Part shown: in pieces, positions 32,292 to 64,000 of the stretch
Numbering within the stretch: the first letter of the stretch is position 1
Layout: every line of letters starts with the position of its first letter
Assembly: GCA_029959085.1 (NCBI GenBank)
Contig: JARWIR010000002.1
Coordinates: 31,758,233-31,822,232 of the forward strand
Reading direction: 5' to 3'
From: Nemophila menziesii
Taxonomy: Eukaryota > Streptophyta > Magnoliopsida > Boraginales > Hydrophyllaceae
DNA length: 64,000 nucleotides
The notes under the pieces: generated by a model
What the model was told of the DNA's origin: nothing
What the model saw: the letters and a program-made list of their open reading frames with translations, nothing else
Database searches by the model: none
Made by a program: the position numbers and the translations under genes

Positions 32292-32296
32292 ATATT
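32292..32296. other. Target-site duplication ATATT (left)
   Basis: Matches ATATT at 38397-38401 immediately outside the two copia LTRs. An exact pair confirms the element's ends. Confidence 0.9.
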
Positions 32297-32758
32297 TATA
32301 AGTCATTTTTTATTTTATTAATATAAAACTTCATTTTATTTTATTTGTCTTTTCTTTTAAATTGATGAATAAAATAAACTTATGACTTTTGGCTTTTCAT
32401 GATCCAACATTAATCCATCCATTAATTTTATCTTAATGTTTTTTTCATTAATCTTATGCAAATGAAAAGTTGTAACACTTTTTTATTAACCATTTGCAAA
32501 TGAAAGGTTGTAACAACTAGTAATTCATTGCCATTAAAAAGCTTGATGGGAGCTTGGCTATATAAACTAGAGTTTTGGTCCCTAAACTCAATTCATTCAC
32601 ACAAAAAAAATATACACCATCTATAGTTGAATGCTTGAGAGTTTGGAAGAACAAAACATAAAGAAAAGTTTCTAAAGACATCAATGGCCGGAGGTATCAC
32701 TACTCTTTTTCGATCTATTTATTTATTCCGCATTTTAGTTTGATCGATTTTTCTAACA
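32297..32758 (+). repeat. Copia 5' LTR (462 bp), young element
   Basis: Begins TATAAGTC and ends TTTCTAACA, so the ends are TA...CA instead of TG...CA. It differs from the 3' LTR only by 8 instead of 9 A in one run near 32603. U3 carries a direct repeat TGCAAATGAAARGTTGTAACA at about 32457 and 32495. A TATA box TATATAAA lies at 32559-32566. An ATG at 32684 and a possible splice donor at 32694 lie near the end. Confidence 0.95.
32559..32566 (+). promoter_or_regulatory. TATA box of copia LTR
   Basis: TATATAAA about 118 bases before the ATG at 32684, in the expected place for the LTR promoter. The two repeated motifs upstream (32457, 32495) could be enhancer elements; that is inference. Confidence 0.7.
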
Positions 32759-35700
32759 TTTGGTATCAGAGCCTTAGGCATACCTCTGCTTTGATTTAGT
32801 TAAACTTTTATATTTTTTGCTTAGTTCATGGCTAAAGTAATTTAGCCAAAATAATTTTGCAAAATGTTTTTTTTTTTTGTGTTGAATCTAACATGTCCTA
32901 CAGTTGAAGATGATTAGAATCCATGAGACATTTTAGTTTTCATTTAAACTTATGGTACTTTTGGATTTTTATCCTTAAGTTTTACATCGGCCTCCAGGTA
33001 TTTATTTTTATTTATATTTTTTTTTTATGTTCATACTTCATGTACTTTTATTTTATGAGTATAGTTAAGTAAACAAAATGTGAATAAAATATATCGTTTA
33101 TTTTATTCTATTTTTGTTATATAGTTTTATATACTCATAAAATTTTAGTATGGTATATTGAATTGTCTAAGTGATCAACATATTTTATTTAATCAAAGAA
33201 TAGCCACAGCATCTTGGTTGAATAAAATATGTATTATGGTATAAGATCACATAATGAAATTAGACATAAATTGTAATTATTTATTTTAATATAATAATTT
33301 TATCCCACAGGAATATTATTATATTTAAATAACTAATTAGGATAAAATATCAAATTATTCGTAATTTTCCCACAGGAATTATGACTTAATAATTATTTGA
33401 TAGTTTTATTATTTAGTAATGATAGAATATTTTTTATATATTTTGTCATATGATTATAAATCTTATTGAATTAAAAATTTAGCCCACAGGCAATTTTTAT
33501 GTCTTAGATTTATTAGACCATGATTTGCATTGGTGAAACATGATATTTATTAATAGTCTATTTATTAATAAGCATGTGATCTTTATTTGCAGCATCACAA
33601 CCTGTTAATTTTTCTGATATCCGTAGTGACATTCCCGAACTTAATGGGGATAATTACAAGTCATGGAAAGAAAGAGTTCTCCTTCACTTAGGGTGGATGG
33701 ACATAGATGATGCTATTAGGAAAACTGAACCACCTGCTCTTACAGACAAAAGCACTCCAGCAGATATTGCACTTTATGAAAAATGGGAGCGATCTAATCG
33801 CCTCAGTGTGATGTTTATTAAGACAAAATTAGCAGCAAGCATCCGTGGTTCAGTAAATCACCATGATAATGTCCAAAATTTACTTAAAGCCATTGATGAC
33901 CAGTTCATCACTTCAGACAAGGCTTTAGCAAGCACTCTAATAATGAAGCTCTCTTCACTTAGGCTCACAAGTGTTAGAGGTGTGCGTGGGCACATCATGC
34001 AGATGAGAGATATTTCGGCTCAACTTAAGAATCTCGAGGTACAGATTTCCGAGTCTTTTCTTGTGCACTATATTTTGAACACCCTTCCAAATCAATATGG
34101 ACCTTTCAAAATCTCCTATAACACACATAAAGATAAATGGTCAATTAATGAACTCATGACCATGTGTGTTCAAGAAGAAGAAAGGTTGTTAATGGAACAA
34201 GGTGAAAGTGCAATGATGGCTACTCAAGGAAAAGGCAAACCAAAGAACAATCAGAAGGGGAAAGGTAAAATAGCACCTCAAGCTGATATTAAGAAAGAAG
34301 CTAAGTGTTTTTTCTGTAAAAAGAAAGGACACATGAAGAAGGAATGTGCTAAATTCCAGAAATGGCTTCAAGATAAAGGTAATCCTACCTCGTTAGTTTG
34401 TTATGAATCTAATACTGTTAATGTTAATATTAACACCTGGTGGATTGATTCTGGTTCTTCAATCCATGTTGCCAACTCTTTACAGGGTATGCAAAACCTA
34501 AGGAAACCAGTGGGCAGTGAGCAATGCATCTTGTCCGGTAATAAGATGGGTTCACATGTGGAAGCCGTTGGAACATGTTATTTATATTTAAGTAGTGGTT
34601 ATGTTTTGAAATTAGAAAAGACTTTTTATGTTCCAAGTTTTTCTAGAAACTTGATTTCTGTTTCCAGACTTGTACCTTTGGGTTATTCCTTTACATTTTC
34701 AGAGACATTTTTTAGTATTTTCAATAAATCTGAATGTGTTGGGAATGGTATTTTGTCTGAAGGTCTTTATTGCATTAATTTACAAAACAATGCTACTAAC
34801 AATAATTTTCATGTCCAAATTGGTACAAAGAGGTGTAATATAAATGAGGATTCCTCGACTCTATGGCACCGGAGATTAGGGCATATCTCTATTGAAAGAA
34901 TCAAAAGGTTGGTAAAAGATGGAGTACTTAGTACTCTAGATTTTACCGACTTTGAAACTTGTGTGGATTGCATTAAGGGAAAGCAGACCAACAAGTCAAA
35001 GAAAGGTGCCAATAGGAGTTCAGATTTATTAGAAATCATACATACAGATATATGTTGTCCTGACATGGATATGCATGGTCAGAAATATTTTATAACCTTT
35101 ATTGATGATTACTCACGATATATGTATCTCTACATGCTTCATAACAAGAGCGAAGCATTAGATGCCTTTAAAATATTTAAGGCTGAAGTAGAGAAACAAT
35201 GTGGAAAACATATAAAGATTGTGAGATCAGATAGAGGTGGTGAATATTATGGTAGATATACTGAAGATGGACAAGCACCTGGTCCGTTTGCTCAGTTTCT
35301 CCAAGAGCATGGGATTGTTGCCCAGTACACCATGCCCGGTTCACCGGATCAGAATGGTGTAGCAGAAAGGAGAAACCGAACATTATTGGACATGGTACGG
35401 AGTATGCTTAGCAACTCCAATCTTCCTAAAAATTTGTGGATTGAAGCTTTAAAAACGGCAGTGTATATATTAAACCGAGTTCCAACCAAGGCTGTCTCAA
35501 AGACACCATTTGAATTATGGAAAGGTTGGAAACCGAGTTTGAAACATATGCGCGTATGGGGATGCCCGTCTGAAGTCAGGATTTATAATCCACAAGAGAA
35601 AAAACTGGACCCAAGGACCATCAGTGGGCATTTCATTGGATATGCTGAGCGGTCTAAAGGTTACAGATTTTACTGTCCATCTCACAACACTAGATTTGTG

Positions 35701-37500
35701 GAATCAAGAAATGCAAAGTTTCTTGAATATGACTTAATCAGTGGGAGCGATCAAATTAGAAATGTAATTTCTGATATTGACCATACAGAAATTCAACCTT
35801 CCACTTCAAGTGATAGAATGATTATTGTTCATAACACCCCTCAAGTACAATCTAGTGTTGAACGTTCAATCGTTGAAGAACCACAAGTTGTTGACGATAT
35901 TCTGATAGATCAAGTTGTTCATGATGAACCTAGTAATTATGAACAACAAGTTGAACCTCATACAGATAATGATGATACAACATTAAGAAGGTCTACCAGG
36001 TTTAAGAAATCATCAATTTCTAGTGATTATGTAGTATATCTTCAAGAATCTGACTATAATTTTGGAGTCGAAAATGATCCTTCCAACTTTTCACAAGCCA
36101 TAAGTTGCAAAGAATCAAATTTATGGTATAATGCGATGAAAGAGGAAATGAATTCCATGAAGAACAATGATGTCTGGGAACTTGTGGAATTGCCTAATGG
36201 GGCTAAAGCAATTGGTTGTAAATGGGTATTTAAAACCAAGAAAGACTCATTAGGCAATATCGAGAGATACAAAGCCAGACTTGTTGCTAAGGGATTTACT
36301 CAGAAAGAAGGAATTGATTACACAGAGACTTTTTCTCCTGTATCTAAGAAAGATTCCTTACGCATTATTTTAGCATTAGTCGCACATTTTGATCTTGAGT
36401 TGCACCAAATGGATGTGAAAACGGCGTTCCTTAATGGAGATCTAGAGGAAGAGGTTTATATGAAACAACCTGAAGGTTTTATCTCTAGCGCTGGTGAGCA
36501 GTTAGTTTGTAAGCTTAAGAAATCCATATACGGATTAAAACAAGCTTCCCGTCAATGGTATTTTAAATTTCATGGAGTAATTTCATCATTTGGATTTGTT
36601 GAAAACCCCATGGATCAATGTATATACCAAAAGATTAGTGGGAGCAAAATTTGTTTTCTTGTTTTATATGTGGATGATATTTTGCTTGTGACTAATGATA
36701 AGGGTTTGCTTCATGAGGTGAAACAATTTCTCTCCAAAAATTTTGATATGAAAGATATGGGTGAGGCGTCTTATGTCATTGGCATTAAGATTCATAGAGA
36801 CAGATTTCAAGGTGTCTTGGGCTTGTCTCAGGAAACCTATATCAATAAAGTTTTAGAGAGATTTCGGATGAAGGATTGTTCACCAAGTGTTGCTCCCATA
36901 GTGAAGGGTGATAAATTCAATTTGAACCAAACCCCAAAGAATGATTTAGAAAGAGAACAAATGAAGAACATTCCATATGCTTCTGCTATCGGAAGTTTGA
37001 TGTATGCTCAGGTTTGCACAAGACCTGATATCGCATTTGTAGTTGGAATGTTGGGTAGATATCAAAGTAATCCAGGTATTGACCACTGGAAAGCTGCAAA
37101 GAAAGTAATGAGATATCTCCAAGGAACCAAGGAGTATATGCTTATGTATAGGCGAACAAACAATTTAGAGGTGGTCGGATTCTCAGATTCTGATTTTGCC
37201 GGTTGTGTTGATTCACGCAAGTCAACATCAGGATACATTTTTATGATGGCCGGTGGAGCTGTGTCATGGAGGAGTGTCAAACAGACTATGACTGCAACTT
37301 CTACTATGGAAGCTGAGTTCGTCTCTTGTTTTGAGGCTACTTCACAAGGTGTATGGCTTAAGGGTTTCGTATATGGACTTAGAATTATGGATTCTATCTC
37401 CAGACCATTAAGAATATTTTGCGATAATTCAGCTGCTGTTTTTATGGCTAAAACAATAAAAGTGGAAGTCGAAGTAAGCACATCGACATTAAATATTTAG
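32684..37500 (+). CDS. Copia gag-pol polyprotein (near-intact, one frameshift)
   Basis: An uninterrupted frame runs from 33593 to 37500; the first ATG in it is at 33697, but coding similarity extends upstream (NFSDI, LNGDNYKSWKERV). So the start is probably the ATG at 32684 joined by splicing. Counting residues from 33697: zinc knuckle CFFCKKKGHMKKEC at 204-217, protease DSGSS with Asp251, pre-integrase LWHRRLGHIS near 389, integrase Asp451, Asp512, Glu557, RT VKTAFLNG near 907 with YVDD at 991-994, RNase H Asp1164, Glu1205, Asp1243. It would package, copy and insert the element. One base appears to be missing in the A-run at 37450-37453. Coding resembling the RNase H end continues in another frame to TAG at 37644-37646, and the current frame ends early at 37500. 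Confidence 0.93.
32694..33592 (+). other. Candidate intron in copia leader
   Basis: Donor GGAG/GTATCA at 32693/32694 and acceptor TTTATTTGCAG at 33592. Removing this 899-base segment joins ATG-GCC-GGA-G to CA-TCA-CAA in frame with the long gag-pol frame. Without splicing the ATG frame meets a stop (TGA) near 32744. The segment contains the LTR end, primer site and three CCCACAGG motifs (near 33305, 33370 and 33483). It is inferred from sequence only. Confidence 0.55.
32761..32773 (+). other. Primer-binding site, initiator tRNA-Met type
   Basis: TGGTATCAGAGCC, two bases after the LTR, is the standard plant copia primer site complementary to the 3' end of initiator tRNA-Met. Confidence 0.95.
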
Positions 37501-37919
37501 CCATAAGGGAACGTGTCAAAGATAAAAAGGTGGTCATTGAACACATTAGTACTGAATTAATGATCGCTGATCCATTGACTAAAGGCATGCCACCAATGAA
37601 ATTCAAGGATCATGTAGCGAGTATGGGGCTTGGTCCCATCATGTAGTGTTTATTTGTATGACACTATCATTAATATAATAATTATCTATTGTGATATTTT
37701 CTCATATACATTGCGCACCTTAATTTTATTTGAGAAAATCATTTAGTTAGGACCAAGAATAAACATATGGTTTATTCATTAAGTATAGTTACAACATAAA
37801 AAAATAAAGAGATAAATATATTGTGATACATGGAAGATACTTCTCTCTCATAATTGGAGGACTTATCGCCATGATTCATATATTTATGATTAAGCTAAAA
37901 TATCAAGTATAATGTTTGG

Positions 37920-37933: not shown

Positions 37934-38396
37934 TATAAGTCATTTTTTATTTTATTAATATAAAACTTCATTTTATTTTATTTGTCTTTTCTTTTAAATT
38001 GATGAATAAAATAAACTTATGACTTTTGGCTTTTCATGATCCAACATTAATCCATCCATTAATTTTATCTTAATGTTTTTTTCATTAATCTTATGCAAAT
38101 GAAAAGTTGTAACACTTTTTTATTAACCATTTGCAAATGAAAGGTTGTAACAACTAGTAATTCATTGCCATTAAAAAGCTTGATGGGAGCTTGGCTATAT
38201 AAACTAGAGTTTTGGTCCCTAAACTCAATTCATTCACACAAAAAAAAATATACACCATCTATAGTTGAATGCTTGAGAGTTTGGAAGAACAAAACATAAA
38301 GAAAAGTTTCTAAAGACATCAATGGCCGGAGGTATCACTACTCTTTTTCGATCTATTTATTTATTCCGCATTTTAGTTTGATCGATTTTTCTAACA
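37934..38396 (+). repeat. Copia 3' LTR (463 bp)
   Basis: The same as the 5' LTR except for one extra A. It also carries the TATA box and the ATG-GCC-GGA-G/GT sequence, so a transcript starting here could splice into downstream DNA. ATATT follows at 38397-38401. Confidence 0.95.
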
Positions 38397-38401
38397 ATAT
38401 T

Positions 38402-58599: not shown

Positions 58600-60283
58600 T
58601 GTTGGAATTATGCCCTAGCCCCGATCGTCTTGTAATGAATTGAACACAAGTGTTTACTGTACACGATAAAAGTTATCCCTACAGTTTTGATTAAAGAAAT
58701 TGTTTCCTTGAATCTATGGCAAGCCTTTATGATTATGGTATTAATCTACATAATATAAAGGCAAATCCTTGATTAAGTTACGAACTAGATATCATAAGGT
58801 GTTATGATAATGAGAATCTAGCTTATAGGAGTTAATCTAAACTTGTTCTTAATCGTAGGATCATCGAGTTAGGACCTCGATGATCCAGTTAGATTAATAT
58901 GTAGCTAACAAGTATTTATTGGATAAATATCGGTAGTTCTCGTTTACCGAGTTAGGTGCATAGATAATGCACATAGAGATGTGATTATCGAACCGACTAA
59001 AACTAGAGATTCCTAATGGTTAATTACCTTGAACTGTCAAATAGGTTAATCTCTATAAGGATTTTTATACTTGTAATCCTTTGACCTGAGATCATCACTA
59101 TAGTTGTGTATGTGCTTGTTATGTTTTGATACTGGACTACTAGTGTGTCATAATGCTAGTCGAAAGGATATTGGACATAGCTAAGTATATATGCTCCTAG
59201 GGATGAGTCAAGATGGAATCTATCAACTCTAGGTAAAGAGTTTGAGCTCTACGATGTCATAAGATTATAACGATTGTATCGAATCCTTGGTCAAGGTGAT
59301 AGAATGAATGAAGAAAGGAGTTTCTTAGGTCATTCGTCAATCGTTGATAATCGACGTGTAACGTAGTTGATTTTCTAATGGGATTTGACAGTTGTACCAT
59401 ATCCCAGGATGATCCGGAGCTGTAAAGATAGAGGGAGTACATGTATGATCCTTTACCGGGTTCTTTGTATAGAGTTACTTCACGTTATCCGGTCGTTGGG
59501 GAGTGTTGTTAGACGCCAACCTCGATTAGTAGTTAATTAAGTTAAATACTACCGGTTTAACGATGAACCCACGTAGTCGCACACTAACGAGTGTATTGAT
59601 CTTGCTTCATGTCGTTAATTAATTTTATTATTAGATAATAAATATTAATTAAATATATACTTGGAATATTGGTATATTAATTTGCTAGCACAATTTAATA
59701 TTCTAATATAAGACCAAACTAAGACAAAAAGGAAAAGGAAAAAAATTGACAAGTTTGTGGATCGAACCACGGACCTCTAGTAGTGTGAAATGTGTCACTG
59801 ACCGCTAGGCTAGTCAATTGTTTTTGTATAATATAGAAGGTCCAAATCCACTTCACAAGTGGTAATGGACTAGATTATTAAGATAATCACTTTCATTATA
59901 CTGACTTTTCCTATTCTTGTCTTTTCATTTTCTTATGGTGGGGGTTTTATAAGATAATGAAAGTCATTATACAAAAAAAAACTTCTCATCAGTTTTCTCT
60001 AAGAAAAAACTCCACAAGAAAGTAAAAGGTTTTTTTTTGGTTTCCAAGTCAGAATTTTGATTCTGAAAGCATGGATTAAAGCTCGGTGTGCAAAGCGTGG
60101 AGGCTTCAAGTTTTTGAAGCTAAGTTAGTCACTGGGCAATTCGATTCTCATACAACGGATTAAGGTATGTAATCGAATTCTTTGTTTCTGTTTAAATTCT
60201 TAAATTGCAACTAGATTGGCTTTAGGATTGCAATATATTTTCCGTTGCGTATATTTGATATATCTGGTATTGCGATTCCTTCA
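58600..60283 (+). repeat. Angela-like copia 5' LTR (1684 bp)
   Basis: Begins TGTTGGAATTATGCCCTAG, the characteristic start of Angela-type copia LTRs, and ends GATTCCTTCA two bases before the primer site. The length agrees with the roughly 1.7-kb Angela LTR. A tRNA-like segment lies inside at 59745-59818. Confidence 0.9.
59745..59818 (-). other. tRNA-like sequence inside copia LTR
   Basis: 74 bases on the minus strand. ATTGAC at the start pairs with GTCAAT at the end; an A-box-like TAGCCTAGCGGT begins at base 7 and a B-box-like GGTTCGATCC lies near base 51 within GTGG...CCAC. The anticodon arm is poor and the T loop is one base short, so it is a tRNA-derived relic or tRNA mimic, not a working tRNA gene. 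Confidence 0.5.
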
Positions 60284-60285
60284 AG

Positions 60286-60298
60286 TGGTATCAGAGCC
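60286..60298 (+). other. Primer-binding site, initiator tRNA-Met type
   Basis: TGGTATCAGAGCC, two bases after the LTR end. Confidence 0.95.
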
Positions 60299-61834
60299 AA
60301 TTGTTGTGATTTATGATTTTAAACATGATATTATATGATAATATTTGAGTTTTGTTTTTTAGGGTTCATATGAAAAATTTAGATTTTTCTATATTGAATT
60401 ATTTGTTAGAATTAATATTAAATTGTTTAATTTTAAATCGTTCGCTTTGGTTTTTGTTTACTGTATGGAGTAAAGAAAGAAAAGGGAAAATATGTCTGTT
60501 GAGGCTTTATGTTCGTGTTTCTGAACATGAACACGTTTTTACTGTTGCAGCCTGTATCATGTTTTGGAACATGAACAATATTTTCGGATAAGTGTGGTGC
60601 AACTAAGGCTGTTAGTTTTCCTTATTTAGTCACATGTCTTATGTGATATTACTGTGATATTTATATTCTGTTAAATTTGTTAATGAGTATTGTGAGAAGA
60701 AAAATTAGAATAAAGGATTCTGTATTTTATTTTTGCTGCTAAAAAGTTAAATAAAATATTGTTTTCTTTGTTCATTGTTTTCTCTTTCATGACACGCAAA
60801 GGGTGACAAAGCAGTGTTTGCAATGATGTTTTTTATTCTTTACTAATTATGAATTAAAAAAAAAAAAAATTGCATGCCTTTGTCATCCAAAAAGGCAGAG
60901 CATGTGATGTGGGTGCTTAACAAAGTTTGACAGAAAAGTTTGCACCGATAAAGTAGTAGGGGAATTCTTTTTAAAATTATTAAACTGTTTAATAGTTTTA
61001 GTAAAAAGAAAAAAAAAATGAAAAAGGGAAAGTCCTTGTTATTTTTGTCCGCTGACTATTAAAAAAATTCATGTAACAACATGAGTTTATTCGTTTCTTT
61101 ATTATGGAGCAATTTTGTGGAAAAAAATTGTATTTTCGAAATTACAGTTATTGCCAGATCTTCGGATATGACCGTTTGGTTTCCATCCTAACGCTTAGAT
61201 TATGAATCGAAGGTGCTTCCCACTTGATAACTAAAAATTATTGAGTTTATTATAAACGATATATATGATATTTCGTGAGACTTGTCCATCGCAAATAGAG
61301 TTTCAAATTTGTTAAGTTTGCAAGTTTTGATCTGACTACCAGGTGGACTTGTAGTTCGAGTACAAACTATAAAAATCTATATTGTTTGATAATAGGATTA
61401 AATTATTAATTTTACGTTTTTAGTCTGGACTACCCAGAGGATGTAGGATTGATAATATTCTATTATAGGATGGATTAACTCAACAAAACTAAATAGAAAC
61501 GACCTGACTACCAGGGGGCTAAATAGTTTTGAGTCTCTTATTTTATATGATAAAATTGGTAACGTACCACACTTTAATTATGAGTGAGAAACGACCTGAC
61601 TACCAGGGGGCTCATTCATGTTTTAAAGTTTCCATATATTCACTTTAATTATGCATGAGAAACGACTTGACTACCAGGGGGCTCATTCATGTATTAAAGT
61701 TTTCAATTATATATCTCTAAGATAACAGTCCATATCTTTGACAGTTATATAATAGTGTTCTTAAAGCATTGTTTCCTATACCTTCCAATGATTAGACTTC
61801 TCAGTATTTCTGCTAAATCACTTCTCAAATCATC
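60299..61834 (+). other. Copia leader with repeated GACTACCAGGGGGCT motif
   Basis: Untranslated leader with short open frames of no meaning (for example 60352-60591). Between 61321 and 61690 the motif CTGACTACCAGGGGGCT or a variant recurs five times, the last two within near-identical units of about 75 bases. Confidence 0.7.
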
Positions 61835-64000
61835 CCAGGTTGGTTAGGTAATCTCAAGGATTATAACTGCAACTTGAGAGTCTTTCTTATGCACATGAAA
61901 CTCATTGATATGTTAAATGAGTTGTTGACTAAATTATCTCTTGAGGATGCATAGAATATATGTGATGCATAGAACTTAGTAATGGTACTAAGTTTATATT
62001 CTTGTATCCATGAGTTATGAACTCCAAAAGATATTTTAAGTATGATAATCCCATGAATCCTTAGATATCTTTAGAAGATGTATAAGTAACTTAGTATGAC
62101 CTTTAGATACCAGTGATCTAATACCAAGAAACAAGGTAAGGGCATTAATGGAAATTGTTTCCTTAATTTCTTGAACTTCTATTAATTACTCGAAAAGGGT
62201 ATTGGATACTCGTAGTAGTCTAGGAATATGCAAAATGTTGCATACTCTAAAGATTAATAGACAAATAAGAATAAGAGAAGTTAAATTACAATTTCGGTAA
62301 TGGAGCCATTGTTGCAGCCACAATTGTAATAACTAATTCTTTAAAGATGCATATGGAAAAACATATTGTAAGAAAACTGTATTATTGTTCGTAAACTTGT
62401 TTTCGAACAAAATAGTCATTTGATCATAAGATGGTTATGATTTATTAATGTAATATAAAATGACCAATGGAGTTTTTTCATCTTGATGAATTACACCCCA
62501 TTGGATACTTACAATATGGTGATTATAATTGCCTAAGTAACTACGTGATTATGTTATAGTTGTTTCTGGTCATAAATCGAAATAGATAATCGTACTAATC
62601 AAACCTTATCTTTGGTGTTATAGACTAAGTCATAAATTATGAGAAAAAGTTTACTAGTTTCACAAGGAAGATTTCCTTGTAGAATATGATTTTGAATCAT
62701 ATGAAACTTGTGAGACTTATCTCAATGAAATATGACTAAATCTCATTTTGATGAAAATGGAGACAATGTTAATGAGTTCTTATGTCCACTATATATTGAT
62801 GTATGTGGTCAGTCTAAACTTTAGCCAAAGATAGATATTCTTACTTCATCTCCTTCACAAACTATATAACAGATATAGATGTGTTTACAAATGTAACATC
62901 AATATAAATAATTTGAAATGTTCAAATTACTATTGAGTGAAGTTGAAAGAAAGTATATAAGAGTATGAAGGAAGTAAGATACCAACCTGTATAGGTGAAT
63001 ATCTTAGCAATGTATTAATAGATTATCTATGACAAAATTAGATTTTGTCTCAGTGATTCACTAGGTTTTAAATATTCCTATGGGATTATGTTTTAAAGTC
63101 AATTGCATATTTAATGAACTCTTAGGTCCCACTAAACAGTCGATAAAATCCGTATGTGGTATGGAGATGATATAAATCAAACCTTAAAATGTAGATTTTG
63201 AAATGTTTGATTTATACTAAACGACTTTTGATGGCTAAGCTTGAGTTGATATCTTTCAAATATAGATTTGTTGGATACCCAAATAAAATAACGAGGTAAT
63301 ATTTCCACACCATTCTGAACACAAAGGGTTTGTGGTAAGGAAGACAACCTTTATAGATTGGAATTCCATAGTGAAGGAATTCATAATGTGGAAATAGATC
63401 ATAATGAAATAAAGATTTCAGAGTTATTTATACAAGCTAAAGAGCATCCGATGCATGCCAGTCTTTCTTTCCTTGATGAGTTAATAGTTTCATTTAAGGT
63501 TCAAGTCTCACACTTTGAGGATATAGGGACGATTCATGAACCTTTCTTGGAAAAAGGAAGTTAACAAATCAATAGAAAGAAGAATTTATTGTACACAAGC
63601 TTCCTATAGGTTATATAGATATCATCATACACCAAAATCAATTGTAATAATGGTGATAGTTGATGAGGGGATCATATAGATGATAACCCCATTAAGTGAT
63701 GATCCTAAATCCCTATGAAGAGGCTATGACTAGTCTAGATAGTGACAAGTGGTTAAGAACCATAGAATTTGAATTAGTATCTATAAGAATCAACAAAGTA
63801 TAGTACTTTGGATGAATCTTCAATAGATGTAAGATCCATTTGTAGTAAATGGGTTCTAAGGAAATGATTGGATAGGACGTTAAGGTAGAGACCTATAACG
63901 ACCTTCTAATTGCTAAGCATTTAAATTAAAAGGAAAACATTTATTATGGAGAATTCCTTTTTGATAGAAATGCTTAATTTATTTCAGATTCTACTATTGG
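61835..64000 (+). pseudogene. Degenerate Angela-like copia gag-pol (runs off window)
   Basis: Coding sequence recognisable through many stops and frameshifts: gag start GNLKDYNCNLRVFLMHMKLIDML (61850-61920), integrase remnant LYIDVCG (about 62790-62810), a region at 63358-63564 corresponding to the integrase-RT linker, and RT start SDKWLRTIEFEL (63739-63775) followed by CSKWVL (63840-63860). The protease and catalytic integrase residues cannot be read. The element continues beyond 64000. Confidence 0.8.

Follow-up and report, generated by a model that had tools for sequence, protein, structure and literature searches.

The stretch analysed here, called the window throughout, is 64,000 nucleotides (nt) of the Nemophila menziesii genome (GenBank assembly GCA_029959085.1, contig JARWIR010000002.1, positions 31,758,233 to 31,822,232), and it holds a young Ty1/copia long terminal repeat (LTR) retrotransposon on the + strand, referred to with its copies as family 1. 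A single indel separates the two LTRs, which are otherwise equal (462 of 463 aligned positions). They start with TATAAG (32297-32302) instead of the usual TG, a boundary that the target-site duplication supports. Transcription is inferred to start near 32593, below a TATA-like box, and the primer-binding site (PBS) is presumably of the initiator tRNA-Met type. The gag is of the copia type (PF14223, 54.9 bits against a cut-off of 27) with a CCHC knuckle scoring under its cut-off (PF00098, 18.7 bits against 20.8), while Pfam DUF4219 and Retrotran_gag_3 touch its N-terminal block below their cut-offs, and this block lies upstream of the ATG at 33697. Integrase appears to precede reverse transcriptase in the gag-pol frame, as read by eye. 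The end of RNase H (37460-37650), also read by eye, runs on in a different frame past 37500, and the pol of the window copy looks broken near that position. The features on which the argument rests are the following.

32292..32296 and 38397-38401, no strand: target-site duplication ATATT, the same 5 bases left and right
32297..32758, + strand: 5' LTR, starting TATAAG and ending TAACA
32559..32566, + strand: TATA-like box TATATAAA
32684..32693, + strand: gag coding exon 1, ATG GCC GGA G, inside the LTR
32694..33592, + strand: predicted leader intron, 899 nt, GTATCA...TTTGCAG, 45% U and 23% GC
32761..32773, + strand: PBS TGGTATCAGAGCC, 2 bases past the 5' LTR and within the leader intron
33593..34378, + strand: gag coding exon 2, from SQPVNFSD through the CCHC knuckle
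34379..37500, + strand: unspliced gag-pol frame onward, ending at 37500
37934..38396, + strand: 3' LTR, with a second copy of the ATG exon and donor at 38322-38333

From 33580 onward the gag frame has no stop, and no ATG in this frame precedes that at 33697, which confirms the original observation that no start codon lies in the open stretch before it. Very probably, gag has a split start, with the initiation codon lying in the LTR and the reading frame being completed by splicing of the leader. The GT at 32694 follows directly on G 32693, the AG at 33591-33592 is followed by CA, and the predicted phase 1 joint (G + CA = GCA) reads MAGA-SQPVNFSDIRSDIPELNGDNYKSWKERVLLHLGW-M, giving the predicted Gag N-terminal peptide AGASQPVNFSDIR with the start (M)AGASQPV. 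The exon, donor, acceptor and PBS-holding 899-nt intron of the original prediction, together with its in-frame joint, were thus exact to the base. The prediction of a short reading from the LTR ATG on unspliced RNA also held, although it opens 19 codons and not about 20. Of the AGs in 33556-33691, that at 33592 alone combines the right phase and an open frame with a position before the conserved N-terminus of gag. The DNA needed for MAG followed by a G/GT donor, ATGGCNGGNGGT, was found twice in the window, once per LTR, against an expectation of 0.03. In dinucleotide shuffles of 32593-32758 (n = 2000), an in-phase ATG exon was obtained 17 times with an AGGTA donor, 57 times with GGTA and 853 times with any GT. 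Chance is thus modest and the window sequence by itself merely suggestive, and it is therefore the relatives, the host copies and a second family that make the case.

Conservation of the three sites in related copies, proposed earlier as a check, was found in the host genome (1.52 Gb). The 59 copies aligned were not a random sample but the 39 best-scoring leader copies (95.5-98.8% identity to the window) and 20 chosen ones, most of them more diverged. The ATG is kept in 58 of the 59, the GT in 57 and the AG in 56, ATG and GT together (5' side only) in 57, and all three sites in 54. Acceptor and exon are lost by deletion in L080 and L090 respectively, L086 lacks the donor GT, and the acceptor is changed in L033 and in L092, the latter also with stops in gag; L084 keeps all three sites with changed codons. 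Within the 12 bases of exon and GT there are 20 changes, half of them at the third position of codon 2, a site at which each of the four bases is found among the copies. Alanine is kept in 8 of these 10, the other two copies (L084 and L086) being also changed at the first base. Of the remaining changes two give GTC codons (L087 and L095), and the decayed copies L084, L086 and L090 account for eight. No scored gag match starting at residue 1 of the MAG query was found among the best 140 of 7661 candidates, and hence no leader-less copy among these, which would be the expectation if the PBS is lost with the intron. The same copies bear on the alternative that Gag starts at ATG 33697 on unspliced RNA and that the open stretch before it is due to chance. 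This ATG is the first in frame, and some annotated relatives begin there too (MDID...), but relatives conserve the preceding 34 codons, in which the copies also show a lower rate of change than in the leader (113/6351 against 1521/46194), and 24 ATGs besides that of the LTR lie between the estimated RNA start and 33697. A start at 33697 was rejected on account of these conserved codons and many earlier ATGs, and we regard it as very improbable.

A second family, family 2, was reached by a search with a Carya protein, to which its gag is about 42% identical, and 10 copies of it were read. Its LTR of about 500 nt has no match to that of family 1, and the two leaders share one 35-base stretch. 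In 9 of the 10 copies the LTR nevertheless carries, about 95 nt before the PBS, the exon ATGGCTTCGG/GTACGC or variants of it, that is ATG-N6-G/GTACGC, a 10-nt exon in the same phase as that of family 1. The acceptor is AATTCAG or AATCCAG in all 10, the leader introns are 1353-1814 nt long, and, as in the window element, the gag frame shown is closed upstream, without any Met ahead of the GCMDLDF block. Both LTRs carry the exon in the 4 copies for which the 3' end was fetched, the LTRs being 98.6-100% identical. The PBS is exact in 7 of the 10 copies and in neither L106 nor L109, and L103 showed neither exon nor PBS within the fetched stretch. That two LTRs without relation to each other should both carry an exon of precisely an ATG, two codons and a single base is hard to explain in another way.

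Three protein searches gave at least 321 distinct relatives, of which 320 aligned (P0118 did not) and 145 reach the junction; the species named among the listed relatives are plants. Of these 145, 41 begin with MA-x-[V/A] or M-[D/V]-[G/E]-[V/A] within 5 residues of the junction, 32 of them with MAG[V/A], and they comprise 22 named plant species and four proteins of the source 'lgn'. Examples are the start of the Xanthoceras protein, MAGASQPTNFSDIRCDIPEL, against the MAGASQPVNFSDIRSDIPEL predicted for the window, and those of Fagus (MAGVVQPANFSD), Cuscuta (MAGVVQPANVSD), Asparagus (MAGAILPGNISD), Carya (MAGAVVPQSLAD) and Nicotiana (MAEVFTAFPTAIFN). Eight more listed relatives have the motif inside a longer model (7 found by script and P0151 by eye), among them PITA_11797 of eukprot, which we take from its prefix to be Pinus taeda. 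Start peptides of the same length are present in models of Cuscuta europaea (MESV), Lonicera (MDSA) and Lactuca (MEAA). Evidently gene predictors have modelled the split start many times. Both these start peptides, in 22 named species, and the second family with its unrelated LTR support the interpretation first proposed for the window, and the split start looks from these sequences like an old trait common to a branch of plant copia elements. The four 'lgn' proteins, all MAGV, lie on contigs of 1199 to 1629 nt, and the contigs of P0026 and P0222 leave under 400 nt for introns, too little for a leader intron as long as that of the window element, so that these two look like spliced RNA.

In the unspliced read-throughs (sources ena, jgi, lgn and src) the triple [F/Y/I/L]-[A/S/T]-[V/A] was seen by eye at the junction in 27 of 33, and such a triple is the reading expected from a T-NCAG acceptor in the DNA before the junction, while residues farther upstream vary between families. 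Off this triple are P0045, P0283 and P0289, a partial fit is given by P0083, P0089 and P0228, and several of those that fit are close kin (P0072, P0219-P0221). Translation from a non-AUG codon, by internal entry or by shunting upstream of 33697 on unspliced RNA would agree with the frame being open from 33580 and with the structured leader. It would leave unexplained the MAG[V/A]-like models, the LTR exon and donor in two unrelated LTRs and the conserved CAG at the junction; for these reasons it was rejected, and we give it hardly any credence. A start after the junction is seen in 175 of the 320 aligned relatives, so that annotation often misses the capsid-protein start in these elements, although this count is partly due to cut contigs.

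Several observations weigh against the split start and were set against the evidence above. Among the proteins that reach the junction and come from named sources (ncbi, uniref, nr and eukprot; 108 counted by hand), 63 lack the start peptide and have other upstream sequence or a different start. The gene models of the relatives are themselves predictions and may have been copied among themselves by homology. That 'lgn' denotes assembled sequencing runs is our assumption, and two 'lgn' proteins (P0028 and P0069) start just past the junction. When compared with the splice-donor consensus, the donor GTATC is off at +4 and +5 and matches only AG/GTA. An upstream frame of 14 codons in weak context at 32631 possibly lies within the 5' untranslated region. 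Among the host copies, L033 has an open gag frame yet a changed acceptor. The exon with its GT changes at a rate (20/708) hardly unlike that of the adjoining LTR (109/3695), and 8 of the 20 come from the decayed L084, L086 and L090, where they lie at positions other than 6. Since the exon is thus not spared relative to the LTR beside it, coding and selection are argued from the positions of the changes and not from their number. Splicing of the leader intron in the cell is itself something we infer.

A second intron of the type that closes the gag frame in BARE1 and EVADE is present at the end of gag, with 40% U against 19% in its flanks.

34379..34485, + strand: second intron, 107 nt, GATAAAG/GTAATC...TTACAG/GGTATGC
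34486..34520, + strand: Gag-only tail YAKPKETSGQ and stop, in a frame opened by splicing and overlapping pol

Its removal ends gag after the ten-residue tail YAKPKETSGQ, and a number of gag-only models of relatives end in ...KKGYAKPKETSGK or similar; a loose pattern for this tail was found in 27 of 149 listed knuckle proteins, some of them longer models. Two genomic insertions, L078 and L079, are without the 107-nt stretch while leader, PBS and both LTRs are present. L079 lacks it to the base and L078 has two changed bases at the joint; the two are 3.5% different and lie in different places, L078 with a TTTTT duplication. Judged by this structure, they look like reverse transcripts of RNA that had lost the gag intron by splicing but kept its leader. 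They show that RNA of the family was spliced at the second intron in the lineage of this plant, and that one intron can be removed while the other stays. The insertions fit the copying of leader-retaining RNA alone, and by themselves are no test of the leader intron. Short peptide-bearing models that end in the spliced tail (e.g. P0010, P0021, P0029, P0050, P0057, P0099 and P0120) would suit the alternative that the LTR exon is mainly the first coding exon of a Gag-only message and that Gag-Pol is made by another route. Against it stand 10 Fagus models of 586-1066 amino acids starting with MAGV or MARV, 9 of which have integrase or reverse transcriptase domains (P0121 has gag only), these being predictions too, and we consider this alternative improbable.

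With a split start, leader-spliced RNA would serve as mRNA for Gag-Pol, reading MAGA-SQPV... into gag-pol, and doubly spliced RNA as mRNA for Gag alone with its ten-residue tail. Unspliced RNA would keep the PBS and could serve as the genome, and it would yield little Gag, as it presents the 14-codon frame, the 19-codon frame of the LTR ATG and 21 further ATGs in the intron. Translated and packaged RNA may thus be separated because the PBS sits in the intron, as read from the anatomy, and part of the RNA might stay unspliced since the donor matches only AG/GTA. The wider proposal is that in a large and old branch of plant copia elements gag is expressed only through LTR-spliced RNA, that splicing is a switch between message and genome which strips the PBS (and, in family 1, the leader hairpins described below) from all RNA that can be translated, and that the LTRs are a portable promoter, start and donor; we judge the chances of this to be about even. 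If it is true, every LTR, solo or not, is a promoter with a start codon and a phase 1 donor able to cap host exons, and LTRs of these elements could give start codon and splice donor to host genes. As a sub-case of the split start, the leader intron could be constitutive and of no regulatory use, genomic RNA being the inefficient remainder. The donor is only a middling match to the consensus and the family-2 leader examined has little structure, both in favour of this sub-case. Against it, both families, unrelated in their LTRs, have the PBS within the intron; a division of labour would need this, although any LTR donor would give the same. Constitutive splicing without such use is possible and in our view rather unlikely.

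A donor in the terminal repeat is also found in retroviruses with their major donor in R, but there Gag is made from unspliced RNA, and a leader start codon is joined by splicing in P4 of rice tungro bacilliform virus, though P4 is not known to be a capsid protein. The open literature searched, in which subscription papers are mostly not included, showed no earlier account of gag initiating in the LTR and being completed across a leader intron. The passages of PMC9097378 and PMC2576258 consulted likewise mention no such leader intron. Introns upstream of gag were called unreported in 2005 (PMC1142308), and plant elements are generally without introns apart from named exceptions according to a 2025 review (PMC12786077). 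BARE1 and EVADE are known to splice their RNA at the gag end (PMC3735527, PMC8892269). The Ty1/copia element BARE1 of barley resembles the window element in an intron of about 100 nt near the gag end (104 nt against 107 nt here) that serves Gag alone; its gag differs in having its own start codon after an untranslated leader, and neither a leader intron nor an LTR start codon is described for it in the text available. EVADE, a Ty1/copia element of Arabidopsis, likewise dedicates a shorter spliced RNA to Gag, shGAG, but its full-length Gag-Pol RNA is described as unspliced and premature polyadenylation is coupled to splicing (PMC8892269). For the Ty3/gypsy element Diaspora of soybean, its authors predicted splice donors within the LTR together with acceptors around the gag start, similar to the arrangement here, as a prediction of unknown relevance with an 873-bp gap before the putative gag start codon (PMC1142308). 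A peptide exon upstream of gag is used in the ZAM and Beagle subclades of insect endogenous retroviruses, where it serves env and not gag and its location relative to the LTR is not given in the available text (PMC12992720). The split start looks like a form of retroelement splicing that is new, in an element of a known kind.

Four hairpins with an identical CACA loop closed by C-G lie inside the predicted leader intron of family 1.

33178..33232, + strand: leader hairpin 1, apex GC-CACA-GC
33274..33339, + strand: leader hairpin 2, apex TCC-CACA-GGA
33344..33406, + strand: leader hairpin 3, apex CC-CACA-GG, pair probability only 0.54
33460..33509, + strand: leader hairpin 4, apex GCC-CACA-GGC

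Four such sites were obtained in 0 of 2000 shuffles, for a motif picked after being seen, and the fold of 33160-33520 has a z of -7.1 with controls at -4.75 (a pol stretch) and -4.89 (another leader stretch). A stricter stem scan found no CACA hairpins, and the apices vary among host copies (e.g. GCCACAAC and CCCATAGG). The hairpins, which would be present in unspliced RNA only, are weak candidates for a packaging or dimer signal of family 1. As a packaging signal for all such elements the CACA array was rejected, since the family-2 leader L100 is without CCACAG; this leader folds about as its shuffles do in four segments (z -1.1 to 0.3), and a long AT microsatellite segment reached z -5.2. 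The donor stretch GGTATCA (32693-32699) repeats the first PBS bases (32762-32768), which is probably chance; family 2 differs (GGTACGC).

Some gag-containing proteins among the relatives are named or typed as host genes (P0139, P0143-P0145, P0149, P0156, P0207 and P0212), the types being RUN1-like, F-box, GLR2.7-like, DeSI1, GDSL, RPS17-4 and ARF. In some of them the host part is attached at the gag acceptor or close to it, which may point to exon capture or to a fusion made by annotation. Scans of viral contigs and of genome contigs with gag or its alignment gave no relative, a plasmid scan led nowhere, and Rfam gave no match. In the host genome, ten leader copies of about 96% identity (L038-L047) lie over about 0.8 Mb of one contig, G000:C327, and their number may owe more to repetition of a large block that contains them than to transposition. 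Elsewhere in the window, at 60060-62000, there is a second, degenerate copia-like 5' part with a PBS at 60286 and a donor-like AG/GTATGT near 60165, and within it five CTACC(C)AG hairpin repeats are found at 61336-61671 (z -5.1).

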